DNA of 64,000 bases, from positions 7,780,001-7,844,000 of the forward strand of contig NC_092579.1 in NCBI RefSeq assembly GCF_037975245.1. The letters are read 5' to 3'. Within the stretch, counting starts at the first letter, position 1. Every line of letters starts with the position of its first letter. The notes below the pieces were generated by a model. The model made no database searches. It was not told where the DNA came from and saw only the letters and a program-made list of their open reading frames with translations. Shown in pieces: positions 1 to 33,798 of this stretch. The stretch comes from Apostichopus japonicus. Its lineage: Eukaryota; Echinodermata; Holothuroidea; Aspidochirotida; Stichopodidae. The position numbers were made by a program, and so were the translations under genes.

Positions 1-2409
1 GCTTTCATCAGCTGCTGCCTGCTGATCGGTGCACGGACATGGCGGTAGATCACCAATGTTAGCAGATCGCAACCAGGAGGAACACATTGTGCTGTCAATC
101 ACGTTGTCGTCAGAACGTTTTGAGGTACCACCAATGCCCCCAGGATCATAGGCATCAACGGTCCCGCCTCCGGGAGATCCAACGAGTATATTACCATCGG
201 ATCCATAACAACACTGTTGTCTACTTCCTCCTGATCCTGATCGATAACACGACGAAGCTCCCGGGTGATAATATTCAAGAGATGGGTTTTCGTCAGGTTC
301 AAAGCCTCCATAAGCTTCTGCCTGCTGATCGGTGCAAGGACATGGCGGTAGATCATCAACGTTAGTAGATTGCAACCAGGAGGAACACATTGTGCTGTCA
401 ATCAATTTCAAATGTACGCTGGATAGAAGGTGATACAGAAGCTTGTCATTTGATCGCAAGGTAATCACTGCCGACGATAGACCAAACGAACTAAGTCCAT
501 CCAAACTTTCCGTTGGTATTTCCGATGGCATGAAACTAAAAATACCTACGTTTTTAACCCTGCCTGAAATTTTAATATCATCTGACCAAATAAGTCCTTG
601 GTCTTGACCGATTCCTTCAATGGCGACTTGAATTGAAATAGCAACGTATTTCACTTCAAACAGGTTGGTTGGATCCCAATCAATGATAATTTCTTTTTCT
701 TTTGTAAAATCAATGTTACCTTCAATTTCATCTGATTGCAAAACATTGACTGTAGCAGGAAGGACATCTTGGGGAAGAATGTAAACATTTCCCCTGAAAG
801 GAAAAGTTTCTTTGTTGTCAACGGACACGTCCACGGTAACGTATGATAGCTGTTGAAACCTCGGAGTAGTGCAAATAATAGTGTAGGCATCAATTACATA
901 ACCGCGTACTTCAATCTCTCTGTTATCTTCATTGAATCGGCAAAATACATTTGTAGTATGTACTTCATTACTTTCAAGACATGGAAGCGTGACAGTGAGT
1001 TGTTCTCCGCCAACCTCTCGCAAAAAGAAGGGTTCAATGTTTAGGAGGCGTTCGTCATTTGGAAGGAAGAGTCCAGCTGAATAGCCATAAGTCTCGGCTT
1101 GTTCATATCCATAAACTACAACAGAAAACGGAGATCCATCGATGTACGAGCTTTGTTCTACGAAAAAGACCCCTTCTCCCTTTGGAACCTCTACCGTATA
1201 TACATCATATGGTGTACCGGCTATGCTATGATGGATATGACTGCTATCTTGTAAAATAGGTTCACCGTTCACAAGAATGGTCTCCGACTCATTAGATTTG
1301 ACTATTATATTGAGAAAATTAAAGAATCCTTCACTGTCTCCGCCAGATTTTGGAGGAGTAGAAAATCCAAAGATGTAGCTGAATTGTTCTTCAGAAGGAA
1401 CCTGAATGATTGAAGGGTCAACAATATTTTGGTTAATTGTTCTTAAAAGCTGCAAGACAGAAATTGGCTGATTTGAGGTGATGACCCCACTCCCATGAAG
1501 CTCGCCTTGCCAAAATTCCCCGACTTGCATTGTTACCGGTTCGATACCGGGAATGGTTACTTCTGAATTTTCGTAATAGGTGTGAATAACATACACTGAT
1601 CGGTCATCAGCGGATCCTGTTGCAGTGTAAATATATGAGCTACTCCAGCTTTCCACCGGTACCACTTGCTCCGAAAGCGTATCACAATTTGATCCCTGCG
1701 TAGATGCACATATGTGACCAGTAAAGAGTGCAAGTGGCTTATCGCTTTCAATTACACTGCCCCCAATATATTCGGCATTGGAATCGCTCACTAGTTGTAT
1801 TACTTCATGTTCGTGGATCGTCAGTTGAATCGTTTCGCCACTCAGGTAAGAGGTGTCACCGATAGTGACTCCTGCGGTAAGGACGATCCTTACGGCAGTT
1901 TCATCTTCCACGCCTACAATAGCAAAGAGACTCGGCCAGATATTGTTACTATCATGGCTCATTGCTACGTAAGATAGTCCAAGATTGTTCACTGGAATAG
2001 CCAAGAAAGCATCAGTTGTGAACGGCGCGTAGTTAAGACCGTAAACAGACACATCGCTGGTAGCAATCACTTCAATGACTTTGTCACTATGTTCTGAGGT
2101 TACACCTAGTAGTAATTCGGTCGGAATATTGATTCGCTTCGAGCTTCTCGCATCCAGAACAAATGTTGTTAGGTACGGCCCATCAATGCCAGAATACTTG
2201 CTGCTTATCGTGACTGATGTTGATTGATCGCTGAATGCAACAACGATCAGAGAGAGTTCAGTCGTTAATGGGCTGTTATCATAGTTGCCTGTAAATGCTA
2301 TCACAAAATGGCGTCCTCGGGTGATACCAGCACAAATGGCTGCATTCCCATCAACTTGGAAGACTAGGTTGACAAGAATGAATATGATAATGACAAGTCT
2401 GTTCGCCAT
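1..2409 (-). CDS. Gene 1: IgGFc-binding-domain / AMOP membrane receptor, partial (3' end beyond window)
   Basis: I read an open frame of 803 codons on the minus strand from ATG at 2409 to the window edge with no stop. It begins with a hydrophobic signal peptide (MANRLVIIIFILVNLVFQVDG), followed by a Cys-containing IgGFc-binding N-terminal region (TRGRHFV, then LSLIVVAFSDQ) to about residue 600. An AMOP domain follows from about residue 675 (CSSWLQS, PPCPCTDQQA, QQCCYGSDGN). By comparison with gene 3 the missing part should be VWD, sushi and a transmembrane helix. The ATG lies just after a good 3' splice site (pyrimidine tract plus ACAG ending at 2415), so a separate leader exon is expected. 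It is much closer to gene 3 than to gene 2. The AMOP segment is repeated in frame after 101 residues (second copy from about residue 776), and the first copy lacks its C-terminal half. Probable role: extracellular or cell-surface recognition; ligand unknown. Confidence 0.85.
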   Translation of the reverse strand, partial: MANRLVIIIFILVNLVFQVDGNAAICAGITRGRHFVIAFTGNYDNSPLTTELSLIVVAFSDQSTSVTISSKYSGIDGPYLTTFVLDARSSKRINIPTELLLGVTSEHSDKVIEVIATSDVSVYGLNYAPFTTDAFLAIPVNNLGLSYVAMSHDSNNIWPSLFAIVGVEDETAVRIVLTAGVTIGDTSYLSGETIQLTIHEHEVIQLVSDSNAEYIGGSVIESDKPLALFTGHICASTQGSNCDTLSEQVVPVESWSSSYIYTATGSADDRSVYVIHTYYENSEVTIPGIEPVTMQVGEFWQGELHGSGVITSNQPISVLQLLRTINQNIVDPSIIQVPSEEQFSYIFGFSTPPKSGGDSEGFFNFLNIIVKSNESETILVNGEPILQDSSHIHHSIAGTPYDVYTVEVPKGEGVFFVEQSSYIDGSPFSVVVYGYEQAETYGYSAGLFLPNDERLLNIEPFFLREVGGEQLTVTLPCLESNEVHTTNVFCRFNEDNREIEVRGYVIDAYTIICTTPRFQQLSYVTVDVSVDNKETFPFRGNVYILPQDVLPATVNVLQSDEIEGNIDFTKEKEIIIDWDPTNLFEVKYVAISIQVAIEGIGQDQGLIWSDDIKISGRVKNVGIFSFMPSEIPTESLDGLSSFGLSSAVITLRSNDKLLYHLLSSVHLKLIDSTMCSSWLQSTNVDDLPPCPCTDQQAEAYGGFEPDENPSLEYYHPGASSCYRSGSGGSRQQCCYGSDGNILVGSPGGGTVDAYDPGGIGGTSKRSDDNVIDSTMCSSWLRSANIGDLPPCPCTDQQAAADES
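82..387 (-). repeat. 303-bp in-frame tandem duplication inside the AMOP region of gene 1
   Basis: The minus-strand segment coding CSSWLQSTNVDDLPPCPCTD starts at 387, and a near copy coding CSSWLRSANIGDLPPCPCTD starts at 84. The offset is 303 bp (101 codons), so frame is kept. The first copy runs through the CCYGSDGN part and then jumps to IDSTMCSSW before reaching the FWFDVLPFIACC half that genes 2 and 3 have. The copies differ at a few bases, so they are not identical. Confidence 0.8.
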
Positions 2410-3138
<729 letters not shown>

Positions 3139-3228
3139 ACGAAAATCCACGTTTACTCCAAAAGAAAATATTATTATTAGAGAAAACCAGAGAAATAAGA
3201 TATGACTCATAATTGACAAATAAGGAGT

Positions 3229-3287
3229 AAGTTTTAGAAAATATATTGGAATTTTCGGTCCCCCTGGGACCTTCGTCAGCAATACTT
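3229..3287 (-). ncRNA. Hammerhead-ribozyme-like sequence, left Penelope copy
   Basis: This is the mirror image of the motif at 6090-6148 and lies downstream of the ORF stop on the minus strand. It shows CTGACGA, a 6-bp hairpin (GGTCCC/GGGACC) and GAAA, with flanks able to form a stem I. See the right copy for details and weaknesses. Confidence 0.45.
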
Positions 3288-3419
3288 GGCAGTCGAATGA
3301 GAAGTACAAAATGTGACACAATGAAAGTATGACGCTAGATAAGTGTAAGTTGCAATGATGGAATTAAAACCAAATAAACCATGACTATACAGGAAGCGGA
3401 TTAAGGAGCAAAGAACGGA

Positions 3420-4697
3420 TTACATATGCTTGTAGAACTGGTAGTTGTTAAGGGGTCCCAAGTCTTTGTTGAGGCCGGTGATGTGAGACTTAATACGAAA
3501 GATCCAATCGATTTCTTTACGTTTACGTTCAGTAGTTGATTTGAAGTTCGAGGCAATTAAAATACATTTTAGGTTTTTTAGAGAATGACCATGAAGATTG
3601 AAATGTTCGGACACTGGGAATCCTGCAAAATTATCACGAACAGATTTTTTGTGATTATTAAAACGTAAGCGGAATCGGGAGCCTGTTTCACCTACATAAT
3701 TGCCCTCTTTGCAAAGTACACAATAGAAAATGTAAATAACATTAATAGAATCACAAGAGAGGGAAGGGGGTCTAAGACTAAAGTCAACATTGGGAATCTT
3801 GACCACGGTGCCTGGGGTAATATGGGGGCATATTTGGCATCTAGGTTTACCGCAAGGAAAATTGCCTGCGGAGGTGGAAACTGAGCGGGGGAGTCTGGGG
3901 GAAGTGAGAAGAAATTTAAGGTTGGGGGGTTGACGAAATGCTAGCATGGGGGGTACCTTAAACGATTCTCCTACAGACTGATCGTCTTGAAATACAGCAA
4001 AATCCTGTTTGATGGAGCGAATGAAAGATTTGATGAGGGGGTTGTAACTGGTAACGAACGGAATGCGTGTGTTGGGACTTTTAGACTTGTATTTTAATAA
4101 GTCCTTACGGCTCAACTTGTCGGCCCTGGAAATACCCTGTCTAATTAAGTGAAGGGGGTATCCGACGTTCAAGAAATAACCAGTTAATATGGATACCTGG
4201 TGTTTAAAATCACATGGGTTGGAGCAAATGCGTTTAAGTCTAAGGCATTGGCTGTAAACAATAGAACTCTTGAGATTATGTGGGTGAAAACTATTAAAGT
4301 GTAAATACATATGAATATCAGTGGGCTTATAATAGACTGAAGTGGTTAAGGAATTGCCATCCAACTTGACCAGAACATCTAGGAATGAAATTTGATGTTT
4401 GGAAACTTCGACAGAAAATTTAATGCTGTCATGAAAAGAATTAACATGATCAAAGAAAGACTTAAGAGATTCTTCACCATGTGGCCAGACAAAAAATATA
4501 TCGTCAATATATCTATAATAATGTGATGGCTTAAGAGGAGAAGTGGATAGCATTTCCTGTTCTAATTCGTGCATAAATATGTTGGCGTAACAAGGTGCCA
4601 TCTTAGTGCCCATAGCGGTACCATTGATTTGTAGATAATATTTCCCGTTAAAAGAGAAATAATTATTACTTAATATGAAACGTAAAATGGGACCAAG
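3420..4697 (-). CDS. Penelope-like RT / GIY-YIG endonuclease fragment (left copy)
   Basis: The frame is open from the palindrome centre and reads LGPILRFIL, then NNYFSFNGKYYLQING, TAMGTKMAPCYANIFM and YIDDIFFVW. YIDD is the RT catalytic motif C, at residues 35-38 counted from the Met at 4613. A Cys-rich CGKPRCQIC motif precedes the endonuclease. The GIY-YIG nuclease starts near residue 290 (INVIYIFYC) with NYVGETGSR near 305. Family knowledge: Penelope-like elements combine exactly this RT with a GIY-YIG nuclease and copy themselves by target-primed reverse transcription. The Met is internal; the true N terminus (RT fingers) is absent, so the fragment should be inactive on its own. Confidence 0.88.
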   Translation of the reverse strand, partial: LGPILRFILSNNYFSFNGKYYLQINGTAMGTKMAPCYANIFMHELEQEMLSTSPLKPSHYYRYIDDIFFVWPHGEESLKSFFDHVNSFHDSIKFSVEVSKHQISFLDVLVKLDGNSLTTSVYYKPTDIHMYLHFNSFHPHNLKSSIVYSQCLRLKRICSNPCDFKHQVSILTGYFLNVGYPLHLIRQGISRADKLSRKDLLKYKSKSPNTRIPFVTSYNPLIKSFIRSIKQDFAVFQDDQSVGESFKVPPMLAFRQPPNLKFLLTSPRLPRSVSTSAGNFPCGKPRCQICPHITPGTVVKIPNVDFSLRPPSLSCDSINVIYIFYCVLCKEGNYVGETGSRFRLRFNNHKKSVRDNFAGFPVSEHFNLHGHSLKNLKCILIASNFKSTTERKRKEIDWIFRIKSHITGLNKDLGPLNNYQFYKHM

Positions 4698-4700
4698 ATC

Positions 4701-5957
4701 ATATTAAGTAATAATTATTTCTCTTTTAACGGGAAATATTATCTACAAATCAATGGTACCGCTATGGGCACTAAGATGGCACCTTGTTACGCCAACATAT
4801 TTATGCACGAATTAGAACAGGAAATGCTATCCACTTCTCCTCTTAAGCCATCACATTATTATAGATATATTGACGATATATTTTTTGTCTGGCCACATGG
4901 TGAAGAATCTCTTAAGTCTTTCTTTGATCATGTTAATTCTTTTCATGACAGCATTAAATTTTCTGTCGAAGTTTCCAAACATCAAATTTCATTCCTAGAT
5001 GTTCTGGTCAAGTTGGATGGCAATTCCTTAACCACTTCAGTCTATTATAAGCCCACTGATATTCATATGTATTTACACTTTAATAGTTTTCACCCACATA
5101 ATCTCAAGAGTTCTATTGTTTACAGCCAATGCCTTAGACTTAAACGCATTTGCTCCAACCCATGTGATTTTAAACACCAGGTATCCATATTAACTGGTTA
5201 TTTCTTGAACGTCGGATACCCCCTTCACTTAATTAGACAGGGTATTTCCAGGGCCGACAAGTTGAGCCGTAAGGACTTATTAAAATACAAGTCTAAAAGT
5301 CCCAACACACGCATTCCGTTCGTTACCAGTTACAACCCCCTCATCAAATCTTTCATTCGCTCCATCAAACAGGATTTTGCTGTATTTCAAGACGATCAGT
5401 CTGTAGGAGAATCGTTTAAGGTACCCCCCATGCTAGCATTTCGTCAACCCCCCAACCTTAAATTTCTTCTCACTTCCCCCAGACTCCCCCGCTCAGTTTC
5501 CACCTCCGCAGGCAATTTTCCTTGCGGTAAACCTAGATGCCAAATATGCCCCCATATTACCCCAGGCACCGTGGTCAAGATTCCCAATGTTGACTTTAGT
5601 CTTAGACCCCCTTCCCTCTCTTGTGATTCTATTAATGTTATTTACATTTTCTATTGTGTACTTTGCAAAGAGGGCAATTATGTAGGTGAAACAGGCTCCC
5701 GATTCCGCTTACGTTTTAATAATCACAAAAAATCTGTTCGTGATAATTTTGCAGGATTCCCAGTGTCCGAACATTTCAATCTTCATGGTCATTCTCTAAA
5801 AAACCTAAAATGTATTTTAATTGCCTCGAACTTCAAATCAACTACTGAACGTAAACGTAAAGAAATCGATTGGATCTTTCGTATTAAGTCTCACATCACC
5901 GGCCTCAACAAAGACTTGGGACCCCTTAACAACTACCAGTTCTACAAGCATATGTAA
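4701..5957 (+). CDS. Penelope-like RT / GIY-YIG endonuclease fragment (right copy)
   Basis: Same protein as the left copy, on the plus strand. The first in-frame codons (ILSNNYFSFNG) begin one base after the arm boundary, so this copy has seven codons fewer than the left one. YIDD and GIY-YIG/YVGET motifs are intact and there is no frameshift or stop up to 5957. A complete lesion-free frame in both copies points to recent insertion. The missing N-terminal RT part makes an autonomous role unlikely. Confidence 0.88.
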   Translation: MLSNNYFSFNGKYYLQINGTAMGTKMAPCYANIFMHELEQEMLSTSPLKPSHYYRYIDDIFFVWPHGEESLKSFFDHVNSFHDSIKFSVEVSKHQISFLDVLVKLDGNSLTTSVYYKPTDIHMYLHFNSFHPHNLKSSIVYSQCLRLKRICSNPCDFKHQVSILTGYFLNVGYPLHLIRQGISRADKLSRKDLLKYKSKSPNTRIPFVTSYNPLIKSFIRSIKQDFAVFQDDQSVGESFKVPPMLAFRQPPNLKFLLTSPRLPRSVSTSAGNFPCGKPRCQICPHITPGTVVKIPNVDFSLRPPSLSCDSINVIYIFYCVLCKEGNYVGETGSRFRLRFNNHKKSVRDNFAGFPVSEHFNLHGHSLKNLKCILIASNFKSTTERKRKEIDWIFRIKSHITGLNKDLGPLNNYQFYKHM

Positions 5958-6089
5958 TCCGTTCTTTGCTCCTTAATCCGCTTCCTGTATAGTCATGGTT
6001 TATTTGGTTTTAATTCCATCATTGCAACTTACACTTATCTAGCGTCATACTTTCATTGTGTCACATTTTGTACTTCTCATTCGACTGCC

Positions 6090-6148
6090 AAGTATTGCTG
6101 ACGAAGGTCCCAGGGGGACCGAAAATTCCAATATATTTTCTAAAACTT
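6090..6148 (+). ncRNA. Hammerhead-ribozyme-like sequence, right Penelope copy
   Basis: Conserved core residues are present in order: CTGACGA (6098-6104), a 6-bp hairpin GGTCCC-AGG-GGGACC (6106-6120), GAAA (6121-6124) and a possible TC cleavage dinucleotide ending at 6140. The flanks AAGTATTG (6090-6097) and TAAAACTT (6141-6148) pair over 8 positions with one A/A mismatch and one G-U, giving stem I. Weak points: an extra A (6105) between the core and stem II, and a stem III of only about two pairs with a large loop. Hammerhead ribozymes are known in the terminal repeats of Penelope-like elements, often with a minimal stem III, so the position 130 bp after the ORF fits. Confidence 0.5.
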
Positions 6149-7340
6149 ACTCCTTATTTGTCAATTATGAGTCATATCTTATTTCTCTGGTTTTCTCTAA
6201 TAATAATATATATATATATATATATACTGCCGATTCAACAATATAAAATGCCGATTCATCACCTTTAGTTTAGTTTACGTCCGGTTATTTTACAAAACGG
6301 GTATTGAACGATTAACAAAGTCGATGAATGCACAATGCTAAACATATCTCATTTTGAAGCCTTAATACACTATTACATTGTACAAGCGGCGTACCACAGT
6401 AATATTAGGTCAATATTTCACCTCTAATTTACGTTTTTCTAACAGCCTAAAGGGGTTACCACAAACCTGCACGCCGTTGCTGTTAAGAGAGAGAGAGTGC
6501 ATGAACCTGCTTAGCCTTTCCTTTCTGAATCATTTAAAGTTCACGAGAAAGCAAAATCGATAGAAATTAGCAACCGCCATGTTGTAAATGACTGAGCCTA
6601 CTTGGTTTTCCTTCCGCCATGGACGGCGGTGTTAGTGAATCTACACGACAGTCAATGCTTAGCAAAGAACAACTGAAATCGCTTGGTTACAGTGTACTGA
6701 TACTGTGTCACAACTTAATTGCTAACAATATGCACATGCTAGTCATAAACATAACCCTTGTCACATGTGTATGTGAAAACATAACATTTTGAAGCCCTAT
6801 CATACATTTCATTACAGACACGACGTAGTCGATCTCTCGATGGCTCGTTTTTGTTACTATTGTATAGGGATTGATCACACAACCATTACGATTTAGTTTA
6901 CATCCAAACTTAAATTCGCATTCGCTGAGGTCGAGCGAATGAAAAACTACAAAAAAAAAACACAAAACAAACATCCAAACAAACAAACAAACCATAAAGC
7001 AAATGAGAAACTCATCAAGAAATCTAGGAAAGAAACAAGTAAGAATCCGATTAATGTTTGAAATCAATACAATAACAAAGATGGGGACAAATTTGTTTAC
7101 TGGAAAAGATTGTTTAGGCCATCGAGATTGAACGCATAGGCCTAATGGGTTTTTTCTTCATTTGTTCACTGTAGCATATAACCTTCTCCCTAGTTACAAT
7201 CTGTAACAACATTAATTTAATATAAATAGTTTTGCCTCTCATTTGTTTACGTTTATGACTGCATTCAGATAATGATGAATGTGAAACATCAGAAGTTTAT
7301 ATAATGGATACTATACACTAATTTTCGATTGCAAGCTTAC

Positions 7341-10590: not shown

Positions 10591-13500
10591 TTAGTCATAC
10601 ACATTTTGAGAGTAAGTTAAATGGTTATCTGGATCAAATGTTGCCATTTGTTGATTAACGTCAGATGTTTGTTTCTTCTCAGATCTTTGTTTATTAAAAA
10701 AACATGAAATAATTATAACAATGGTCAAAATTAATAAGCAAGAAAGGATCACAACCACGGCTATCATAACCGCTGTTTTTATTCCAGTTGACTCTTTGAC
10801 CGTTGTACACGTCGGTAGGTCAGCTGACCATGTGCCATTCAATTGACATGTCAAAACCGATTGGCCAAATAAGATGAAGCCATCGTTGCAAGAAATATTC
10901 AATGCTGAACCAACAAGGTATGTATCGCCATTAACAACGCCATTTTCAACTGTTCCAGGTACATCACATCTAATAAGAATGCATTCTGGAAGCTGTTGAG
11001 ACCAAGTGCCATTAGGCTGACAATGCAACTCTCCGTCACCGTAGCTTAAAAATGATACTTCATTGCATATTACCACCACAGTATAACCGACTAGATAAAC
11101 GCTTCCATTTACGTATCCATTAACAACTTCTCCAGGGAAACCGCAGCTAACGATTTTAACCGACTGTTCCGTTATTGTTTCAAATTCGTGAACATCTTGC
11201 AAAGAATCATTTGCAAAACTTGTACTCCCGGTTGTGACGGCATCAAAGATACAAATAGTCGAATCTCCGCAAACCGATTTGATATCTTCGCTTACGTCAG
11301 TTGTATTCGGAAATTCCAAAGTAGGAACAAAGTTAACATCGCGGAACGAAAAAAAATCAGTAGGTGGCAGATAACTGAAAATCGAAGTATTTACATTTAA
11401 CATCCATGAAAGTCCAAAATCGTAATGGATGATATCAATCGTCGAGTTTGGTGATAAGGTTGATCCATCTGGTAACATCAAGTCATCTTCGGGATGGTCG
11501 TTGAAGTTCCCTAACAAACCCTCTGTCTTTTCTTTAAATTCGTCTGGTAATTGTAAAATGAAAGACATCATCTCTGGTGTTATACGAATCAATAATGTCG
11601 CCCCTGTGCTAAGAGAAATCCTGACCTTTGACAAGTCTGGGTTAATCGCTAGCCTCATCCCAGGAAAGGTTTGTTCTCGGATAAGATGCCCTTCGAAGAA
11701 CAAATCAATCTGAACCATATCCATCAAAATCATTAAGGAATCATCCAATTGTGACCTCTGAACTTGAATAACTGGAGAAAGATTGGACGAAAGAACAAAT
11801 GCCGTATAGACACTTGCATTAGTACCAGGAAGAGCTTCCATTCTTGCTTGAAAAGTTAGATTATGTAAAGTAGATTTTAGAAGAAGAAATTCTCCTGCAC
11901 CATTAAATGTAAATTCTTTTCCGTCGAGACTCAAAAAGTGAGGATCTCCAGTGCCGCGAGTTGGACGTGGAGGTTGGTACTGTGAACAATCATCTGAGGG
12001 GCGAAACTCGTAGTAAAAGCTACACAAGTGACTTTCTTGCTTACAGCAAGACAACCAAGGTAAGATGTCATACCAAAAATGCCAGATGGTACCAATGTGT
12101 AAAGCATAAGCATCAGCAGTTCCGCCCGCCGGAGGTCCCACTAAGATGTTTCCGTCACTCCCGTAACAACACTGCTGTCCAGAGCTACCTGATGTAACAC
12201 TAGAACGAAAGCACAAAACGGCACCCTCGTGGACGAAAGTTAGATCCGACGAGTCATCTTCCTTGAAATTACCGTCAACGAATGCTTGATCATCGGTACA
12301 GGGACAAGATGGAACGTTGCTAAGTCCATCAGGCATAAAGTTAGCTAGCCGATTGTCAGACCATTCGTTACAAGATGTCGAACCAAGCACCTTCAAAAAT
12401 CCACTAGAGAGATGATACAATATTGACTCTGATCGTGGTTTAACAATAAATACCGCTACAGACGTACCAAACGGGGCTATGTTTAAAGGGAAATTTTCAT
12501 GCATTAAATTGAAACTGCCAGTATTTTCCACCTGTTTGATGTCGATGTCCAATGACCAGCCAAATCCTGGACTCCCAAAGTTCGGAAAACTTACCCTAAC
12601 GGAAATATCTACCCATTCTACAGCGAAGAAGTCATCGGATATCCAATTAATAAAAATTGTTCCATTTTCGTTGAAATTGATGTAGCCAAACGTTTGCCCT
12701 GACTGTTCTACAACAACCTTTGGAGGGAGAACGTGCTGAGGGAGAACATGGATATTTCCTCTGAACAGGAATGTCCTTCCATCATCTACAGAAACATCAA
12801 CTGTGACATAAGATATCAAATGAAACACTGGCGTGATGCAGACAATATTGTAGAGGTCAATAGGCGTCCCTGTTACTTCTTCCGTAGCTTCTGTGCTTGT
12901 GGTAAACCTACATTTTATGCTGTGAGTTTCAGCAACATTTTCTTCAAGACAAGGTAACGTCAGAGCCAGTTGTTCTCCTCCAACCTCTCTCACAAAATAA
13001 GGTTCGATGTTAAGGAGACGTTCATCAGTAGGAAGAAATAGTCCAGCCGAGTATCCATACGTCTCATCATCTTCGTAGCCATACACAATGACCGTAAACG
13101 CGGACGTGTTGTTTAAAGAACTCTGTTCTACGTAATACGTTCCTTCTCCTTTCGGGATCTCTAATGTATATACGACATAGTCTGTTTGTGGAATGTTGTG
13201 GTGGGTGACAGTGTCATCTGTTAGAATGATCTCTCCGTTCATTAGTATTGTCGAAGATTCGTTGGCTTTGACAACAATATTCAGGAAATTGAAGAAGCCG
13301 TCATCATCTCCACCGGATGAATAAGGTGTAGAAAATCCGAAAATGAAACTATATTGGTCTTTGGCAGGAACCTGAATAATAGATGGATCCACTATTACCT
13401 GGTTTATTGTTCTCAGCAGTTGAAGAACAGAGATAGGTTTATTTGACTTAATTATCCCACTTCCAACTAGTTCGCCCTGCCAGAATTGCCCAGTTTGTAA

Positions 13501-14376: not shown

Positions 14377-19289
<4,913 letters not shown>

Positions 19290-19590: not shown

Positions 19591-19649
19591 GCAAGTCTAA
19601 TCTATTAGTAAAACAAGAACATACATTTCGAATAATACAATTTCCCCCT

Positions 19650-21358: not shown

Positions 21359-22774
21359 GTAAGTCTAATCTCAAACTTAGACCATAACACATTCATTTGA
21401 AGTTCCCTTTTTTCCCTAATAGCTCTGTACATCATCGTAATATATGAAATATATTCACGTCGATAATATGGGTTTGAGCCAGATACTTTAATTCACTCTC
21501 TTCTCCATTCGGTTGTCAAACGTTTATATTTTATAATTAAACGATCACGTCAACAGAGATTAAAAACAAGTTTGTTCTTCTGAAGAATACCATAATCTTT
21601 TTTCTGTTAGAATTGTTACTAATCTAAACGGCAAATCAGAGATATCGAAATTTGCCATATAAGTATATTTAAAAAAAGGTTTTGTCGTAAGATTCCTGTA
21701 TTGAATAATAATCATAATACTAAATTGAGAACTATCAAAACGAAAAACTGATTGATGTTCTCATACTTTATCATAGAAATGGATGCAACCAACAAAAAAG
21801 GATGGTAAAAGTAGTCAGCAAGATATGCAAAATCAAATTTAGTTTCATCGCCCATTGAATAGATATTTATTGATTAGTTGTGTGTAAAAACCTGAGACGT
21901 ATTGCAAGTATGGCTAGGAGATCGTAATTGCTATTCATTGACAAAGGTGATGAACGGCATTTTTTGTTATAATGTAGAACGACGTCCGTAGACAACAGGT
22001 GAAATAGATCCTCGACCCTACCTTGCACAATATAATGAAATAATTTCTCATGATTTTATAGTGAAATAAAAATCTCTTAATATCATTGTCAATAGAAACG
22101 GATTGGAAAATTGTTTCTGATGAATGAGTTTTCAAATACTGCCGATAATGTATATTTATATATGAAAGTTTTCATTTTTGTAAAGAACACTCACAGTTCA
22201 TAAATTTTGAAAATTCAAATGCTGAAGGCTGCAAAAAAAGCTGGACATGTGACGTGATTGTCCTCGTGACCGGACCTGGCGCTCGACACCCTTCTCTGTA
22301 TCTGTCAGGGATTGCGTACACAAACCCGGACTAATCCTCCAACTTGGAACTCTTTGGAGGGATATACCCAAACTGGATTCCTTTTATCAAAAATAAAATA
22401 AAAGGGTACATTATTTGCTGAAAACTAGTGTAATGTCTCCGAATTTCCATCTTGCAATATGAGAACAGCTTCCTACATGCATGCATGATTCAGGTATCGA
22501 TCCAACCTCAAGTATATCAGATTCTGCATGATGCATACACTATAATGATAATATCTATCATAACCATAAGAGCTTTTTGCACATTATCTGGCGAGAATTG
22601 GACAAATGTCATTTGGAATTTGGCAAAGGCCAAAGTAACTAATATTTCAATTTATATTAAAGAATACGGGTTCTCTGAATTTTTGTACGGTGTATCACGT
22701 GATAAAAAGTACAATGTTTCAGATGCTAATAGCCATAGAATGTTAAGACTTATGTGCTTTCTCTTTATCGATAG
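21359..22774. other. Former intron 1 of the receptor pseudogene
   Basis: AT-rich sequence between the leader-exon candidate and the 3' splice site (CTTTATCGATAG ending at 22774). No other feature seen. Confidence 0.4.
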
Positions 22775-25690
22775 GATTGTGAGCAGGCTTGTATTAATCA
22801 TCTTCATCCTGGTTCACATGGTGGTTCAAGTTGATGGGAGTACAGACACCTGTGCCGTTGTTACCTGAGGACGTAAATTTTGTGATAGCCTATACATGTA
22901 ATCGATTTTGTGGGAGCAGCCAACTCTTGCTGATCGTTGTTGCATTCACCGATCAACCAACAACAGTCACGATAACTTGCAGCAAACATTCTGGCGTTGA
23001 TGAGCTGTACCCAACAACATTTGTGCTAGATGTGAGGGACTCTAAGCGAATCAATATTCCAAGATAATTATGCTTGACACAACGTCAAAACATAGTGACA
23101 AAGTCATTGAAGTAAATGCAAACAGTGATGTATCTGTCCACGGTTTTAATTACGCACCTTATTCACCCGATGCTTTTTTGGTTACTCCAGTGAATAATAT
23201 TGGCGTATCGTAGGTAGCAGCGAGCTATGCAAACGACGGCAATGTATGTCGGGGAGACTTTATTCGCTGTCGTCGGGGTAGAGGATGAGACAATCCTTAG
23301 AAATATCCTTACAGCAGGAGTTACGATTGACGAAAATTCTTATCTAAGTGGCGATACAATTCCACTGATGATTCACAAACATGAACTAATATAACTAGTG
23401 AGCGATTCAATCTTAAAATGTGTGGGTTTAATGAAAAGCGATAAGCCAGTTGTCTTTTTTACTGGTAATTTGTGTGCATCTACGACGGGTTCGTATTGCG
23501 ATGCTCTTGCAGAACAATTGTTACCGGTAGAAAGCTGGAGTAATACGTACATTTACAGTGCCACAGGATCAGTTGATGACCAATCAGTGTATGTGATTCA
23601 CAGCTATTACGAGAATTCAGGGGTAACCAAGCAGTTACAGGATCAGTGACACTGCAACTCGGAGAATTTTGGCAAGGTGAGCTTCAAGGAAGTGGGGCAA
23701 TTGCCTCAAATCAACCGATTTCTGTGATGCAAATTTTATCAACGATAAAAAAATAAAAAATCGGTGGCCCCTCTATCACCTAGGTCTCATCTGAGGAACA
23801 ATTGAGCTTCTTATTTGGATTTTCTACTCCTCCAAAGTCTGCTGGAGACATGGAAGGAGGGTTCTTTTTGTCTAATTTTCTGAATATTGTGGTAAAATCA
23901 AATAAATCGGAGACGATTTTGCTGAACAGTGAACCTATTTTACAAACAGCAGTCACAGCAATCACAGTATACCTGATACATAATATGATGTAAGGTAAAA
24001 GTTCTAAAATGAGGTGTCTATTTCGTAGAACAGAGCCCATCTCCTTTTTTTTTGTTATGGTTTATGGGTATGAACATGACGAGAGTTATGGTTAGTCAGC
24101 CGGACTCTTTCTCCTAAATGACGGAGACGGGTGTTGGCGGAGAGCAAATTAATGGCACGCTCTCGTGCATTGAACATAGTGTAGTTCACTCTGACAATGC
24201 GTTTTGTCGATTCAACGCCATATAATAGAGTGATTGACGTCCCCGGCCATGTTCTTGATGCGTAAACCATTGTCTTCACTACTCCGAGGTTTCAACAACT
24301 ATAATATGTTACTGTGGACATGTCCATTGGCGGCAAAGAGACTTTCCTTTCAGAGGGAATGTTCATATTCTTCCCCAAGATGTGTTGCAATCAGGTGAAA
24401 TTGAAGGTAACATAGATTTTACAAAAGGCAACGAAATTATCCCTGAGTGGAATCCAAGCGAACTGTGTGGCATAGGATACATCGATATTTCAATTCAAGT
24501 CGCCATTGGATTTATTTGGTACAAGTGATATAAAAATTGCAAGCAGGATCGAAATCCTAGGCAGATTTAATTTCACGTCATCGGATATACCAACGTAAAG
24601 TTTGAATCTACTTAGTTCATTTGGTCTATCGTCGGTAATTACATTCCAATCATACGACAAGCTACTAATTAGCGTACATTTGAAATTGATTTACAGCACA
24701 ATCTGCTCCTTCTGGCTGCAATCTGCTAACGCTGGCGATCTACCGCCATGTCCGTGCACCGATCAGCAGGCAGAAGCTGATGGTAGACTTGAACCTGACG
24801 AAAATCCATCTCTTGAATATTATCACCCAGGAGCTTCGTCGTGTTATCGATCAGGATCAGGAGGAAGTGAACAACGGAAGCGGGACGGTTGATAGCTATG
24901 CCCTTAGGGACATTGGGGGCATTTACTGTACCGTAAACCATTTTTGGTTCGACGTCCTACCATTTATAGCCTGCTGCAAATTGACAAGTTAGTGTGAAAT
25001 TTAATATTAATTTCGTCCTTCAGATAATTGTTCGGATTATCAGCCACCACGACCAACTACTGACACAGGACATCCGCATTTCATCAGTCTGGACGGGAAA
25101 GAGTTCACCTTTAAATGGTGCCGGTGATTTTGTTTTGGTCAAATCTTCTCTGCATAACTTCACATTCCAAACCAGAATGGAGGTTTTAGCTGGTACTGAT
25201 GCAAGCGTCTACACATCCTTTGTACTTTCTTCCGACATACCTCATACAATTCAAGTTCAGAGGTCACAGTCAAATGGAACACTCATTCTCTTGAATGGTG
25301 AACCAATTGATCTCTATTTCGATGGATATCTGATCCGAAAGCAAGACTTCCGTGGACTAAGGTTAACCGTTAACCCTGACGTGTCTGAAATCACGGTACG
25401 CCTACATATTAGAGCAGAATATTTAATTAGGATCACAAGAGAAATGATTTGCTTCTATGTTACAATTGTCGGATGCGTTGAAGGGAGGGACTACTGGGCA
25501 ATGTTAGTTATATCCGCGATGATGACTTTACTTTATCAAACGGGTCTTTACTGTTAGCTAACTCACTATTTAATGACCCTCTTCAAGAAACTAGAAATTA
25601 CGGAACAGTTAATGAGAATTTAGTCAAAATTGTCAGTTGTGGTCAACCAGGTAAAATTGAAAATGGGACAATGAGTTTTCACAATTCAAG
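22775..25690 (+). pseudogene. Decayed receptor copy (IgGFc-binding-N / AMOP / VWD), many lesions
   Basis: Homologous to gene 3 along most of its length but split among short frames: signal peptide (LVLIIFILVHMVVQVDGST), IgGFc-binding region (23100-24000), AMOP (CTDQQAEADGRLEPDENPS near 24760, FWFDVLPFIACCKL near 24950), VWD (MEVLAGTDASVYTSFVLSS near 25180) and the start of a sushi domain (KIVSCGQPGKIENGTM near 25630). Lesions I can see: the start codon region reads GATTGTGAGC instead of GAATGGCGAGC, Arg to TGA soon after the signal peptide, numerous frameshifts, an internal deletion after the VWD GNFND region near 25555, and loss of the end of the sushi domain, the transmembrane helix and the tail. 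Not expected to be functional. Confidence 0.9.
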
Positions 25691-27629: not shown

Positions 27630-27937
27630 ACACTACAGACACACAGACTAAACTTTGGATTGCGAATGCCCAAGTTGGATTCTGTAACAGAGATACAAAC
27701 AAGCTCTTAACAACTGTAAGGTATACGACGACAGGCACATTATTGACTTAGCATCGCTAATACTTAAATTAGCCATTTACGTAGAACTACCATACACTTC
27801 AACTGTGTATAGGGAGTGGACGATAAGAAGATCAGATTAGACTGAATTTATTCTAGCAAAGAGCAGTTTGTCACAGGTACTCTATCGTCATAACACAAAA
27901 TATCCTAACAGACTGAGTCAGACGTTACAGCTTTCAG
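27630..27937 (+). promoter_or_regulatory. 5' flank and leader exon candidate of gene 3
   Basis: Leader-exon candidate 27861-27937 (GAGCAG, TTGTCACAGGTACTC, ATCGTCATAACAC) ends in CTTTCAG followed by GTAAGA. It is shared with 21287-21358 and 19512-19590. With the 3' splice site at 30190 the intron would be 2253 bp. Promoter elements themselves were not identified. Confidence 0.45.
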
Positions 27938-28145
27938 GTAAGAAAAATGTCTACATAAAACAAGCACAAAATCAGTTTGACTTATATTTGTATTTATTCT
28001 TACATTTCTTCCAATTATTCTAAATTAAATATTTTCGTTAAAAATAGGATGTTTAACGAACGATTCCAGGTCAATTGTTTGCCCGTCTCCATTCGGTTGT
28101 CTCTTTTCAAAGTTTTATATAGGATAGAACATTCTGCACATTTGG

Positions 28146-28640
28146 CATAGCGGTATCACACTTCGTTTTCTTTCCTAGTTGTTTACATATTTTAGCATTG
28201 AATTTCATGAATATACAATCATCTATCACGCTATCGAAGTTGTAAAACTTTTAGTTCTAAAGAAGTTTGCGTTCTTTCCTTATGTTTCGGTTAATTTTGT
28301 TATGTTAAATATTTCCCAGTTGGATAAATTTCGTATAGTATGTTTTTCAAATTCATTTGTTCGAACTAAGTGAATAAATTGATCGAATCGACTAAAGTTC
28401 AGACGGCTTGCAGTAGGTTGTCAATTTCTGGTAATTTTAGCAAACCTTGCCCAGCAGCTTTTCTCGAGTACGAGATGAGAGTTGACCAAACTAAGATAGC
28501 CTTTTAGATGTATTACCCTAATAAACGAGGGTTAACAAACCAGTACTCAGAGTTATGACATTCAACTCTAAAATAATATTCAAGTATTAATCTCATAGAA
28601 AATGTAAAAGCAGGACGTTTAAAAATTATCAAATAATCTT
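28146..28640 (+). repeat. Diverged duplicate of 34206-34640 (copy 1)
   Basis: Long collinear similarity: GTATCACACTTCGTTTT, TGATCGAATCGACTAAAGTT, TTTTAGCAAACCTTGCCCA and CCTTTTAGATGTATT all recur in the same order about 6060 bp downstream. The two copies flank gene 3, as expected from tandem duplication of a unit that included 3' flank. Confidence 0.8.
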
Positions 28641-30190
28641 TCATTAGTTGAAACAAATGATTACTGAAGGTAATGAACCGCTTGATATTTTAGTATTAGA
28701 TCCATTCGAAACTTAATCAATACAAGAAAAGTAATAATAGGTTAATACTAATAAAAAGTATCCAAACGAAAACTTATTTAATTAAATTTTCATATTTTAT
28801 CATCAAAATGTAAACTCCTTAACGTATGTAAAGAATTCCAAATACTAACAGTGATAAAGTAGCTCAAACACTTCGCTCTTTTACCGTTTGTGTAAAGCAC
28901 GTCGTCGTCTGTAACATCATTAGTATTTCTCCTGGCTCGGCATCGTAAGTGCTATTTATAGAAAGTTACAATCAAATTTATGGAATTTGTTTGTATAATA
29001 TTTAAAACGGCGTTCGTTGGCTACTCCATAATATTGCAATATTTGGTGGTTCTATGCTAATAATAGATGTGAATGATTTCGTTCCATTTTTTTTTTGTAA
29101 CTGCGACAAGTAGGTTCATAATATGAGATTTTTTTTTCAATAAAGTACAAAGCACACCAATTCTCGGTTCAAATTGTAGCAATCTTTGCAACAGCCGAAC
29201 ATTAGATAACCAGATAAAAATAGAGATTAAAGAAAGTATTTTGCTATATTATAATATTTGATAAATTTGAGGTAAAGTATAAATATATGTTCTTTCTATC
29301 TTCCGAAATGAGAACAGTACACTATGAATTAGATTTTGACTCAACTTTAATAATCATACTAAGACATTAGAATGCCTACGCAATGATAAAAATTCTAAAC
29401 AGTGTCATTTGATGTATTTCTATTATAAAAATGTTGCAGAATGTGCTATTCATTTAAGAGACAGCCGAACATTATGTTGTTATTTTGGTGGGGCTATCCG
29501 AAACATTAAACTAGTGGACAATCAAAGGAGTAGCAGATTTTATCGCAAAATGTGGGCATGTGACCGCTGTGAAGTCATCACTATGGTAGCATAAAACATT
29601 GAACTCACGTACCTCATGACAAAACCAAAAAAGAAACGTTTCGTCACCTGACCAAAAATATAAATAAACTTCTACCACTTATTGACCATGATTGACCTCC
29701 TGTTACCCGTAAATATTACACACCATGTTTTCATATAACACACCATGTATTTCATTTTAAACACCATGTATTTCTGTAACAACTGTTGCAATGACAACCA
29801 AAATAGCTCTAAAAGGCTGCAACAGTCAACTGACCTGTATATTACAAGTATAGGGAGGAACTGCTGTTCCTCATATCAACTTTTCCTCTGAAGTAGAATG
29901 AAACATATCATACCGTACTCTTCATTCATCTTTAACATGGAAAACTGCCACTCTATTGAAAAAGGTTAACCATCCACTAAATTGTGACATGATTATAACA
30001 GATATTTGCAACATTAAAGGAACTGGGCAGTGAACATTGCAATAAAGCTACATTTGTTATTCAAGTGGCTTAGATTATATCCCTCTATATACTTTGGAAG
30101 CAATTGATAAAAAGAGTTAACAAAAAATACCATAATGTCAATACACGTATACACAGAACTAGATTTTGTGTTTCCTTTATATCCCAATAG
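28641..30190. other. Intron 1 of gene 3, 3' part
   Basis: AT-rich non-coding DNA ending in the 3' splice site TATATCCCAATAG. No other feature seen. Confidence 0.4.
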
Positions 30191-30192
30191 GA

Positions 30193-33100
30193 ATGGCGAG
30201 CAGGCAGGTCTTCATCGTCGTCATCCTAGTCATCCTGGTGTTTCAAGTTGACGGGAGTGCAGACACTTGTGCTGGTATCACCAGAGGACGCCATTTTGTG
30301 GTAGCATTTACAGGCAACTATGATAATAACCCCACGACGACTGAACTCTCTCTGATCGTTGTTGCATTCAGCGATCAACCAACATCAGTCACGATAAGCA
30401 GCAAGTATTCTGGCATTGATGGGCCGTACCTAACAACTTTTGTGCTCGATGCGAGAAACTCGAAGCGAGTCACTATTCCGACCGAATTAATACTTGATAC
30501 GACCTCAGAACATAGTGACAAAGTCATTGAAGTGATTGCAAACAGCGATGTATCTGTTTACGGTCTTAATTACGCACCTTATACGACCGATGCTTTCTTG
30601 GCTATTCCAGTGAACAATCTTGGAGTATCCAATGTAGCAATGAGCTATGATAGTAACGATTTCCGGCCCAGTCTCTTTGCCATTGTAGGCGTGGAGGATG
30701 AAACTGCCGTAAGGATCGTCCTAACCGCAGGAGTCACTATCGATGGCACCTCTTACTCGAGTGGCGATACGATGCAACTGACGATCCACGAACATGAAGT
30801 AATACAACTAGTGAGCGATTCCGACGCCGAATATATTGGGGGCAGTGTAGTTGAAAGCGATAAGCCAGTTGCACTCTTTACGGGTCACTTATGTGCATCT
30901 ACGCCAGGATCAGCTTGCGATACGCTTTCGGAACAAGCGGTACCGGTGGAAAGCTGGAGTAGTACCTATATTTATACGGCCACCGGAACATTTCTTGACC
31001 GATCAGTGTATGTAATTCACACCTATTACGAGAATTCAGAGATAACCATTCCAGGTATCGAACCGGTGACATTGCAAGTCGGAGAATTTTGGCAAGGCGA
31101 GCTTCAAGGAAGTGGGGTCATCACCTCAAATCAACCAATTTCCGTCTTGCAGCTTTTAAGAACAATAAATCAATATACCGTTGACCCATCTATCATTCAA
31201 GTTCCCTCTGAAGAACAATTCAGCTACATCTTTGGATTTTCTACTCCTCCAAAATCTGGTAGAGACAGTGAAGGATTCTTTAATTATCTCAATATTATAG
31301 TCAAATCAAATGAGTCGGATACCATTCTTGTGAACGGTGAACCTATTTTACAAGATAGCAGTCACAGCCATCATAGCATAGCCGGTACACCATATGATGT
31401 ATATACGGTAAAAGTTCCAAAAGGAGAAGGGGTCTTCTACGTAGAACAGAGCTCATTCGTCGATGCTTCCCCATTTTCTGTTATTGTTTATGGATTTGAA
31501 AGTTCCGAGAGTTATGGTTATTCAGCTGGACTCTTACTTCAAAGTGACGAACGTCTTCTTAACATTGAACCCTTCTTTGTGCGGGAAATTGGCGGAGAAC
31601 AACTCACTGTCACCCTCCCGTGTCTTGAAAACATTGAAGGGCATACTGAAAATGTGTTTTGTCGATTTAATGAAGATAACAGAGTAATTGACGTCCCCGG
31701 ACATGTTCTTGATGTCTACACCATTATTTGCACTACTCCGAGGTTTCAACAACTATCGTATGTAACTGTGGACGTAACCGTTAACGACAAAGAATCTTTT
31801 CCTTTCAGAGGGAATGTTTACATTCTTCCCCAAGATGTTCTTCCTGCTACACTCAATGTGTTGCAATCAGATGAAATTGAAGGTAACATTGATTTTACAG
31901 TAGAAAAAGAAATTATCCTTAAGTGGGATCCAACCAAACTGTTTGCAGTGGAATACATCGATATTTCAATTCAAGTCGCCATTGAAGGAATCGGTCAAGA
32001 CCAAGGACTTATTTGGTCAAATGATATCAAAATTGCAAGCAGTGTTGAGAACTTAGGTACATTTAGTTTCATACCATCGGATGTACCAACGGAAAGTTTG
32101 AATGCACTTAGTTCGTTTGGTTTATCGTCGGCAGTGATTACCTTGCAAGCAAATGACAAGCGCCTATTTCACGTTCTATCTAGCGTACATTTGAAATTGA
32201 TTGACAGCACAATCTGTTCCTCCTGGCTGCAATCTGCTAACGTTGGCGATCTACCGCCATGTCCGTGCACCGATCAGCAGGCAGAAGCTGATGGAAGCTT
32301 TGAACCTGACGAAAATCCATCTCTTGAATATTATCACCCGGGAGCTTCGTCATGTTATCGATCAGGATTAGGAGGAAGTGGACAACAGTGCTGTTATGGA
32401 TCCGATGGTAATATACTCGTTGGACCTCCCGGAGGCGGGACGGCTGATGCCTATGCTCCTGGGGGTATTGGGGGCACCTTAAAACATTTTTGGTTCGATG
32501 TCCTTCCATTTATAGCCTGCTGCAAGTTGACAAGTCAATGTGAAACTTACTATGAATTTCGTCCATCAGATGACTGTTCAGATTATCAGCCACCACGACC
32601 AACTATTGGCACAGGAGATCCTCATTTCATCAGTCTGGACGGGAGAGAGTTCACCTTTAATGGTGCCGGTGAATTTGTTTTGGTCAAATCTTCTCTGCAT
32701 AACTTCACATTCCAAACCAGAATGGAGGTTTTAGCTGGTACTGATGCAAGCGTCTACACATCCTTTGTACTTTCTTCCGACATATCTGATACAATTCAAG
32801 TTCAAAGGTCACCTTTAAATGGAACACTCATTCTCTTGAACGGTGAACCAATTGATCTCTATTTCGATGGATATCTGATCCGAAAGCAAGACTTCCGTGG
32901 ACTGAGGTTAACAGTTAACCCTGATGTGTCTGAAATCACGGTACGCCTACATATTGGAGCAACAGCATTAATAAGGATCACAACAGAAATGATGTCTTTC
33001 AGCTTACAATTACCGGATGCGTTAAAGGGAAAGACGGAGGGACTATTGGGCAATTTTAATGACAACGCCGATGATGATTTTATTTTACGAAATGGGTCTT

Positions 33101-33798
33101 CTTTGCTACATAATTCAACATTGGAAGCAATCCATTTTGACTTTGGACTTGGATGGATCCTTGAAACAAATACTTCCAAATTCACTTATTTACCACCATC
33201 TGACTTTTCGACATTTTTCCACCCAGACTTTATTCCTAATTTAGTGTACCCGGATGTTAATTCCGTCAGCGAGGAAGTCAAGCTCATTTGTGGCGACTCT
33301 ATAACGTGCTTATATGATGCCGTCACAACAAACAGCACGACTTTTGCTAATGACTCTCTTCAAGACATTAAAACGTACGAAACAGTTAATGAGAATTTAG
33401 TCAAAATTGTCAGCTGTGGTCAACCAGGTAAAATTGAAAATGGGACAATTAATGGTAGTGTTTTTCTAGTGGGCTACACTGTAGTTGCCTCCTGCAATGA
33501 AGGTTTCTATCTGGACGGTAATAGTGAGTTACTTTGTTATTCAAATGGCACATGGTCGGGAAACTTACCAATTTGTATAGAAATTCCGATTGCAAACAAC
33601 ACACCGCCGTCGGTTTTGGGTAGCCTTATTATAATTGTAATTACATCAGTCATTGGTAGTTTAGTGTTAATTGCCATTATTGTGGTTATTATAAAGAAGT
33701 TCTGCTTATATTCAAGTAAGATAAGAAAAGGTCATGGCCCAACTAATGAGAACATTCCGTCTGAAAACAAGGCATTCGAACATGACGAGTATCAATGA
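30193..33798 (+). CDS. Gene 3: IgGFc-binding-domain / AMOP / VWD / one sushi domain / transmembrane receptor
   Basis: Intact 1201-residue protein. I use the ATG at 30193 because a 3' splice site ends at 30190 and the following MASRQVFIVVILVILVFQVD is a clear signal peptide. Order: IgGFc-binding N-terminal region (TRGRHFVVAFTGNY) to about residue 560; linker; AMOP about 675-795 (CSSWLQS, PPCPCTDQQA, QQCCYGSDGN, HFWFDVLPFIACC, RPSDDC); VWD about 806-975 (GTGDPHFISLDGREFTFNG, LLGNFND); one CCP 1075-1128; transmembrane helix about 1141-1170; 31-residue tail ending FEHDEYQ. Known: AMOP, VWD and CCP occur together in SUSD2-like membrane proteins, and the IgGFc-binding N-terminal domain occurs in mucin-like FCGBP. 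The combination suggests a surface receptor for glycoprotein or microbial ligands (inference). It has one CCP where gene 2 has two, and an unrelated tail. Confidence 0.92.
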   Translation: MASRQVFIVVILVILVFQVDGSADTCAGITRGRHFVVAFTGNYDNNPTTTELSLIVVAFSDQPTSVTISSKYSGIDGPYLTTFVLDARNSKRVTIPTELILDTTSEHSDKVIEVIANSDVSVYGLNYAPYTTDAFLAIPVNNLGVSNVAMSYDSNDFRPSLFAIVGVEDETAVRIVLTAGVTIDGTSYSSGDTMQLTIHEHEVIQLVSDSDAEYIGGSVVESDKPVALFTGHLCASTPGSACDTLSEQAVPVESWSSTYIYTATGTFLDRSVYVIHTYYENSEITIPGIEPVTLQVGEFWQGELQGSGVITSNQPISVLQLLRTINQYTVDPSIIQVPSEEQFSYIFGFSTPPKSGRDSEGFFNYLNIIVKSNESDTILVNGEPILQDSSHSHHSIAGTPYDVYTVKVPKGEGVFYVEQSSFVDASPFSVIVYGFESSESYGYSAGLLLQSDERLLNIEPFFVREIGGEQLTVTLPCLENIEGHTENVFCRFNEDNRVIDVPGHVLDVYTIICTTPRFQQLSYVTVDVTVNDKESFPFRGNVYILPQDVLPATLNVLQSDEIEGNIDFTVEKEIILKWDPTKLFAVEYIDISIQVAIEGIGQDQGLIWSNDIKIASSVENLGTFSFIPSDVPTESLNALSSFGLSSAVITLQANDKRLFHVLSSVHLKLIDSTICSSWLQSANVGDLPPCPCTDQQAEADGSFEPDENPSLEYYHPGASSCYRSGLGGSGQQCCYGSDGNILVGPPGGGTADAYAPGGIGGTLKHFWFDVLPFIACCKLTSQCETYYEFRPSDDCSDYQPPRPTIGTGDPHFISLDGREFTFNGAGEFVLVKSSLHNFTFQTRMEVLAGTDASVYTSFVLSSDISDTIQVQRSPLNGTLILLNGEPIDLYFDGYLIRKQDFRGLRLTVNPDVSEITVRLHIGATALIRITTEMMSFSLQLPDALKGKTEGLLGNFNDNADDDFILRNGSSLLHNSTLEAIHFDFGLGWILETNTSKFTYLPPSDFSTFFHPDFIPNLVYPDVNSVSEEVKLICGDSITCLYDAVTTNSTTFANDSLQDIKTYETVNENLVKIVSCGQPGKIENGTINGSVFLVGYTVVASCNEGFYLDGNSELLCYSNGTWSGNLPICIEIPIANNTPPSVLGSLIIIVITSVIGSLVLIAIIVVIIKKFCLYSSKIRKGHGPTNENIPSENKAFEHDEYQ

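Follow-up and report, generated by a model that had tools for sequence, protein, structure and literature searches.

The window analysed here is a stretch of 64,000 nucleotides of the sea cucumber Apostichopus japonicus (C19:7780001-7844000; the genome searched comprises 671.6 Mb in 35 contigs). It carries a cluster of genes in which an IgGFc_binding head of the kind known from the mucus protein FCGBP precedes AMOP, VWD and sushi domains, which recur in the membrane proteins Mesh and SUSD2. The locus raises the question of how this combination came to lie in single, uninterrupted coding exons, and how its copies have diversified. We think it likely that the genes form a clustered family with one coding exon each and encode type I membrane proteins, in which a stalk of the Mesh/SUSD2 type carries an FCGBP-type IgGFc_binding head at the place where Mesh has NIDO and SUSD2 has somatomedin B.

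Domains were called with Pfam profiles against their curated cut-offs, and transmembrane (TM) helices and signal-peptide-like starts were judged by hydropathy only. The genome-wide profile and protein searches scored the best candidates only, and their counts of large families are to be read as lower bounds; for instance, the protein search with gene C listed 38 matches, with 39 of 169 candidates scored.

All five Pfam profiles lie above their cut-offs in genes B and C, whose open reading frames span 10591-14448 on the minus strand and 30163-33798 on the plus strand (Table 1). Both proteins have the same order: a hydrophobic, signal-peptide-like N-terminus, IgGFc_binding, a TIG-like stretch, AMOP, VWD with the motif GDPH, C8-3_MUC4, one or two sushi domains and one TM helix. 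The IgGFc_binding matches (PF17517) have E values of 5e-51 in B, 8e-47 in C and 9.6e-48 in A, and those of AMOP are 3e-13, 4e-13 and 6e-12, respectively, A having only the first half of the domain. In B and C, VWD matched at 2e-14 and 1.5e-15, C8-3_MUC4, placed between VWD and sushi, at 4e-11 and 2e-10, and Sushi at 2e-18 (two stretches) and 2e-9 (one stretch). For the TIG-like stretch, the TIG_plexin match (0.14) is below the cut-off. The stretch of B, C and a further copy, E, aligns with the TIG frame of a gene on contig C14 over 81-82 columns (32-33%; E 1.4e-7 to 9.3e-7), as does that of a copy on contig C8 (E 5.5e-5). A comparison of the N-terminal half with solved structures by sequence gave no match up to E 10.

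Gene A runs off the edge of the window. Its AMOP start is repeated in frame with a period of 101 codons, at window positions 402 and 99, just before that edge. The adjoining 5000 bases (C19:7775001-7780000) read N, and a 2513-residue frame for this gene was discarded as an artefact of reading through them. The relic R is without a start ATG, has a 225-base gap after its VWD part and is missing most of the sushi and TM end. Its alignment with C contains 32 indels, 19 of them of a length not divisible by three, and 16 stops in the frame of C; beyond about position 33463 the alignment is poor (0.38-0.45 identity), so that a few of the indels and two of the stops, which lie there, are unsafe.

The initial annotation had described three apparently intact genes and one relic, two on each strand, with the order IgGFc_binding, AMOP, VWD, sushi, TM. 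Order and orientations stand, and the IgGFc_binding profile, suggested as a check on the N-terminal half, does not fail there. The relic is real, whereas the count of intact genes has to be lowered, as the window contains just two of them, B and C, in full. Additional to that description are the C8-3 domain, a TIG-like stretch and coding exons free of introns.

Table 1. Features of the gene cluster and of its immediate flanks (window coordinates; aa, amino acid position or length).
Feature	Position	Strand	Details
Gene A, coding exon from ATG (2409) to window edge	1..2409	-	Hydrophobic start, IgGFc_binding, TIG-like stretch, tandem repeat of the beginning of AMOP
Sequence just upstream of gene A, presumed 5' intron end	2412..3023	-	Homologous to that of E: 623 columns, 88.9%
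Gene B, complete coding exon, 1261 aa	10591..14376	-	Two sushi; GDPH at aa 810
Acceptor-like sequence just before the ATG of B	14377..14421	-	16/17 pyrimidines, then CAG
Relic R, decayed tandem copy of C	22750..25673	+	Frameshifts, stops, homology to C including flanks
Acceptor-like sequence just before the ATG of C	30148..30192	+	13/17 pyrimidines, then TAG
Gene C, complete coding exon, 1201 aa	30193..33798	+	One sushi; GDPH at aa 808
IgGFc_binding of C	30589..31494	+	Pfam, residues 143-444 of the open reading frame
TIG-like stretch of C	31495..32211	+	Without Pfam match above cut-off; matches TIG exon of the C14 gene
AMOP of C	32212..32550	+	Pfam; not split by an intron
VWD of C	32611..33096	+	Pfam; starts one residue ahead of GDPH
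C8-3_MUC4 of C	33262..33393	+	At or just past the two cysteines six residues apart (aa 1033 and 1039)
Sushi of C	33415..33576	+	Pfam
TM helix and short cytoplasmic tail of C	33598..33795	+	Hydropathy
Insertion in the 5' flank of A, absent from E	3024..6316	.	E contiguous across the site

The family had been called local, and it extends past the window on both sides. In this genome it consists of seven complete genes, the truncated A and the relics R and F, so it is not single-copy. Four complete genes lie on C19 (D at 7756 kb, B, C, and E at 7849 kb), together with F at 7855-7858 kb, and three (x, y and z) lie on C8 at 20.82-20.90 Mb. All five domains are above cut-off in each of the seven. 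The IgGFc_binding match scores 165-180 bits in D, E, x, y and z and 160-174 bits in A, B and C, against a cut-off of 25.6. The PF17517 search listed 38 matches, eight of which are family frames of more than 1200 residues, one of these (A) read through N. At the protein level A, C, D and E are 81-89% identical to one another and B is 56-59% identical to them; identity is 92-95% among the C8 copies and 40-44% between these and the copies on C19. The C-terminal tails of five of the seven complete copies end in Gln-Val-Val or Gln-Ile-Val, and those of B and C differ. Contig C22 has two lone, unsplit AMOP frames about 50% alike to the family (L018:8389-8967 and L020:8653-9249), each downstream of a frame that we take to be paraoxonase-like.

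The architecture can be compared with several known systems. Human and other vertebrate SUSD2, a gene with many coding introns, shares AMOP, VWD with GDPH, sushi and a single TM helix (the latter judged by hydropathy in B and C), and differs in its N-terminal somatomedin B domain; no Pfam match to somatomedin B was found at E 0.01 in B, C, D, E, x, y or z. PMC11788884 likewise pairs somatomedin B with AMOP in SUSD2. Mesh, a protein of the insect smooth septate junction, is given for the rootworm as NIDO-TIG-AMOP-VWD-sushi-TM (PMC4964579). The order of AMOP, VWD, sushi and TM is the same here, and the TIG-like stretch is under the Pfam cut-off but aligns to the C14 TIG frame; Mesh starts with NIDO whereas the family starts with IgGFc_binding, and the seven complete copies have no NIDO match at E 0.01. 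In FCGBP the IgGFc_binding module is N-terminal, as it is in the family, and VWD with GDPH is also shared. FCGBP differs in having 13 VWD domains and in being secreted (PMC10880436), while the family has one VWD plus AMOP, sushi and TM. FCGBP also has many VWD-C8-TIL repeats and no membrane anchor; the complete copies of the family gave no TIL match at E 0.01.

MUC4 shares AMOP, VWD and the MUC4-type C8-3 profile with the family, which differs in having no NIDO match and no visible mucin repeat. A separate, intron-containing gene on C4 (L022, L023), which we named MUC4-like, combines a long Ser/Thr-rich repeat with a partial match to NIDO (1e-14) and a VWD start with GDPH (5e-4, below the score cut-off). 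The sea urchin Sp185/333 (SpTransformer) genes resemble the family by description: they are clustered, have few exons and segmental duplications, and gene conversion has been proposed for them, and they differ in being shorter than 2 kb with two exons (PMC3091723). No description of the IgGFc_binding-AMOP-VWD-sushi combination was found in open papers, as judged from search listings and selected passages, subscription journals and domain-architecture databases being outside that search, and the combination may well exist elsewhere as an unnamed predicted protein.

In all seven complete copies the frame is uninterrupted from the hydrophobic start to the tail. Just before the ATG, 8 of the 9 copies examined (R included, F excluded) have 13-16 pyrimidines in 17 positions followed by YAG (Y, pyrimidine), and 58 of the 2585 ATGs in the window reach 13 of 17. 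Because the copies are related, the nine acceptor-like sites are not independent observations, but at the threshold used the three groups (B; A, C, D, E and R on C19; the C8 copies) have no upstream sequence in common. The simplest reading of these predicted sites is an intron in the 5' untranslated region, which is likely. Separate retroposition of each copy was considered and is rejected in view of the acceptor-like sequence and the shared flanks, which point to duplication of the copies at the DNA level.

The related domains are divided elsewhere in the genome. AMOP is split over two frames at six places (four on C12, one each on C14 and C16), with the pieces meeting near profile positions 61-83, and four further places at 8.6-9.2 Mb of C19 list the second half only. 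It is unsplit in this family, at the two C22 places and at one other place on C8. The gene on C14 is collinear with the C-terminal half over about 9 kb, in at least seven separate frames that comprise TIG (Pfam 7e-5), two parts each of AMOP and VWD, C8-3 (Pfam 3e-5, just under the score cut-off) and sushi. Its first AMOP part has a Pfam match of 2e-5 and aligns weakly with a C8 copy (E 0.09), its VWD start has GEPH in place of GDPH, its VWD end matches a C8 copy at E 0.008, and the following frame has a TM-like run, judged by composition only.

Among the listed matches, the joined architecture was met only without coding introns. Every IgGFc_binding match among them that is not part of the family is more than 1 Mb away from any AMOP match, the nearest such pair being about 1.27 Mb apart on C14. 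Of the 28 listed IgGFc_binding matches beyond the family, 24 have an almost entire domain in one open frame, so that only the stalk would need an RNA step. Because the introns of the related genes are absent in this family, we infer that it probably goes back to a DNA copy of an mRNA that was chimeric or spliced. The gene structures thus suggest a spliced-RNA step as the best explanation of the intronless exon, short of proof.

Within the exon, A, C, D and E are mosaics: the pattern is one of coding-exon pieces exchanged between copies. Four copies on one tree should give a single class of two-and-two informative sites. Instead, the 110 sites of this kind belong to three classes (59, 27 and 24) that form long blocks along the exon, which indicates exchange. 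Neighbouring sites are of the same class 82 times against 42.5 expected, a value reached in none of 10,000 shuffles. The blocks persist in third positions alone (58 sites, 0 of 10,000) and in codons whose amino acid is the same in A, C, D and E (42 sites; 26 against 13.2 expected, 0 of 10,000). Max-chi gave 0 of 2000 in seven of eight triples and 126 of 2000 in the eighth. Blocks of conflicting ancestry, the mark of multigene families that exchange segments, are hence present. The C8 trio is also clustered (0 of 10,000 shuffles; max-chi 6 of 2000). Between A and C, third-position differences are clustered over four window sizes (1 to 20 of 2000 shuffles), and differences at first and second positions are clustered in the smallest window only (18 of 2000).

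The flanks provide an independent yardstick for the coding exon. Upstream of A and E, 164 of 2760 aligned sites differ (0.059), 131 of these being in the B/F exon; in four of seven coding segments the third positions of A and E differ at 0.15-0.24 (p 1.4e-4 to 3.4e-7 against the flank). As a whole, the coding exon of E is nearest to that of D. The D-E match covers all of it at 90.9%, ending some 27-29 bases before the ATG and about 15 past the stop, and the upstream sequence of D is 72.6% alike to that of E and displaced. C has the opposite orientation to A, D and E, so exchange also crosses orientations. The mechanism of diversification would most simply be gene conversion over the uninterrupted 3.6-kb stretch.

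The larger arrangement consists of two blocks. The block with A and B (copy 1, approximately C19:7766346-7844735) lies directly beside a shorter copy 2 (7844743-7886329), which contains E and F but neither R nor C; where the two blocks match, they are about 85-98% alike. F is 96.2% alike to B and a broken version of it, while R and C, at 77% and with common flanks, form an older tandem pair. This shows spread by block and tandem duplication, which would have given rise to the C19 cluster, with four complete genes, A and two relics, and to the three genes on C8. An exact direct repeat lies near the border of the two blocks, at window positions 63536-64000 (119 bases within the window, 349 with adjoining sequence).

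The initial annotation had also called the cluster fast-evolving. This holds for turnover (relics, gain of copies, exchange of segments) and only weakly for the rate of substitution: across the nine pairs whose Ks is <0.4, the ratio of nonsynonymous to synonymous change (Ka/Ks) ranges over 0.29-0.45. VWD has the lowest Ka among the domains in five of six comparable pairs, and the signal peptide, the TM helix and the tail are the parts that vary most between lineages. Positive selection on the N-terminal region was considered and is not robust, with an excess of amino-acid changes at residues 25-132 in one of six pairs (p = 0.022, uncorrected).

All seven complete copies have GDPH, and 22 cysteines are common to them, with which the protein would fold in the endoplasmic reticulum. 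In copy C, six cysteines, among them the pair at 1033 and 1039, lie after GDPH and ahead of the TM helix and tail. PMC6696261 gives six for the C-terminal fragment of human SUSD2, with a pair likewise spaced by six (C683/C689). In the same paper, cleavage at GDPH yields two SUSD2 fragments held by disulphide bonds, and a serine protease is proposed. For FCGBP, PMC10880436 describes self-cleavage, a cut between Asp and Pro of GDPH that is stopped by changing Asp or His, and it argues that a SUSD2 deletion mutant is explained by trafficking failure from misfolding. By analogy, the proteins of the family may be cut between Asp and Pro into two disulphide-joined surface fragments. The IgGFc_binding head would then face outward and be presented to mucus, microbes or a soluble lectin. 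Three papers mention proteins of this name without a link to this family: a table of differential expression in diseased sea cucumbers gives positive values for a transcript called IgGFc-binding protein (PMC4906609), a section dealing with coelomocytes places FCGBP with the leading genes of one cluster (PMC11925454), and for sea stars a module related to adhesion includes an IgGFc-binding protein (PMC10320347).

Our tentative synthesis, to which we give a little less than an even chance, is that a reverse-transcribed chimera of an IgGFc_binding gene with one of the Mesh/SUSD2 type founded this receptor family, and that its uninterrupted exon serves as a recombination cassette, trading head and stalk segments between neighbours, also inverted ones, to give new receptors on a two-fragment, self-cleaved scaffold. 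Several points weigh against the main reading of the cluster or against its parts. The best-candidate scoring leaves room for further copies or for an intron-containing chimera. The acceptor-like site of D is weak (11 of 17 pyrimidines), and the 5' intron and expression are predicted only. The C14 gene is a relative rather than a proven parent, and intron loss could take routes other than reverse transcription. As for exchange, A aligns reliably only to about residue 760, which makes a max-chi break near 730 suspect. The longest identical third-position run between A and C is ordinary (421 of 2000 shuffles), their first and second positions in wider windows gave 101, 542 and 276 of 2000, and the three other A-E coding segments gave p values of 0.0068, 0.025 and 0.82 against the flank. 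The structure predicted for the N-terminal half from a three-sequence alignment has a mean predicted local distance difference test score (pLDDT) of 34 and is unusable. Cleavage at GDPH is proposed by analogy, and the sources differ on its agent, a serine protease or the protein itself.

Other explanations account for parts of the same observations. Head and stalk may have been joined as DNA after the stalk had lost its introns, which would also leave the coding exon uninterrupted. The head, nearly whole in one frame in most places outside the family, needs no RNA step under such a fusion, and the unsplit AMOP frames on C22 point the same way; yet the 65 matches listed for such genes (59 of 164 candidates scored) include none in which a stalk of AMOP, VWD and sushi stands alone without introns, and we regard DNA-level fusion as possible, on the doubtful side. 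The mosaic pattern could also reflect uneven constraint or convergent selection instead of exchange, since amino-acid change varies by domain and the A-C third-position differences are uneven along the gene. We consider this very improbable, as the blocks persist in codons for one amino acid and, in four of seven segments, A and E differ more at third positions than they do in their flanks. The two C19 blocks may have arisen by tandem duplication, or they may be two haplotypes that the assembly retained. The block of E and F could be a retained second haplotype, with D-A-B-R-C on one chromosome and E-F on the other: copy 1 abuts copy 2, the collinear matches are interrupted by large indels and include the stretch with the neighbouring glycosyltransferase, and B and F are nearly alike. 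The flank substitution divergence of about 6% is large for alleles, if not impossible in marine invertebrates, and two haplotypes of a single gene could not account for all three C8 copies, so that we think two haplotypes a credible but rather less probable arrangement. Under that arrangement D must, as we read it, still exchange with E or A, and the mosaic result stands; we think that exchange between copies is needed whether the blocks are duplicates or haplotypes.

The role of the proteins allows a further choice. Surface recognition or mucosal defence, as put forward in the initial annotation, is no more than a candidate function here, and a relative of Mesh might act in epithelial junctions or adhesion rather than as an immune receptor. 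The tails of B and C, the two complete copies in the window, have no YxxL/I, NPxY or YxxPhi motif, which fits a junction protein. Multi-copy clusters with relics and segment exchange would be unusual for such a protein, and a likely intron-containing gene of the Mesh/SUSD2 type is already present on C14. Despite the resemblance of the C-terminal half to Mesh and SUSD2 (TIG-AMOP-VWD-sushi-TM, as in PMC4964579), we hold a junction role to be rather unlikely.

Read as a family of exchanging, membrane-bound receptors, the cluster shows swapping of the head module (NIDO, somatomedin B or IgGFc_binding) on an AMOP-VWD-sushi stalk, and a likely RNA step in the making of a large chimeric receptor. It is also a tractable one, in which the exchange of segments between receptor genes can be dated and traced between individuals. 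If expressed in immune cells or gut, the proteins would represent an FCGBP-like molecule anchored in the membrane instead of secreted into mucus, in an invertebrate and thus in an animal not known to have antibodies, and would bear on the original ligand of IgGFc_binding.

The remainder of the window holds several other features. The insertion upstream of A contains a 3.0-kb palindrome (3168-6209) of two inverted reverse-transcriptase copies, presumably Penelope-like, with arms 99.5% alike (RVT_1 1.5e-9) and an AT repeat beside it (2987-3138). Broken retroelement pieces that we take to be LINE-like (long interspersed nuclear element) lie at 41688-46119, with a reverse-transcriptase match of 1e-10 and an endonuclease-like match of 0.033, under the cut-off. 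Two features recur in the second C19 block: a tandem array of about 30 copies of a 34-base unit (55351-56386) and an uninterrupted frame of 515 residues with a galactosyltransferase domain (60318-61865; Pfam 1.5e-46). The tRNA and Rfam scans of the window gave a single match, a tRNA-Gly with anticodon tcc at 48160-48233.

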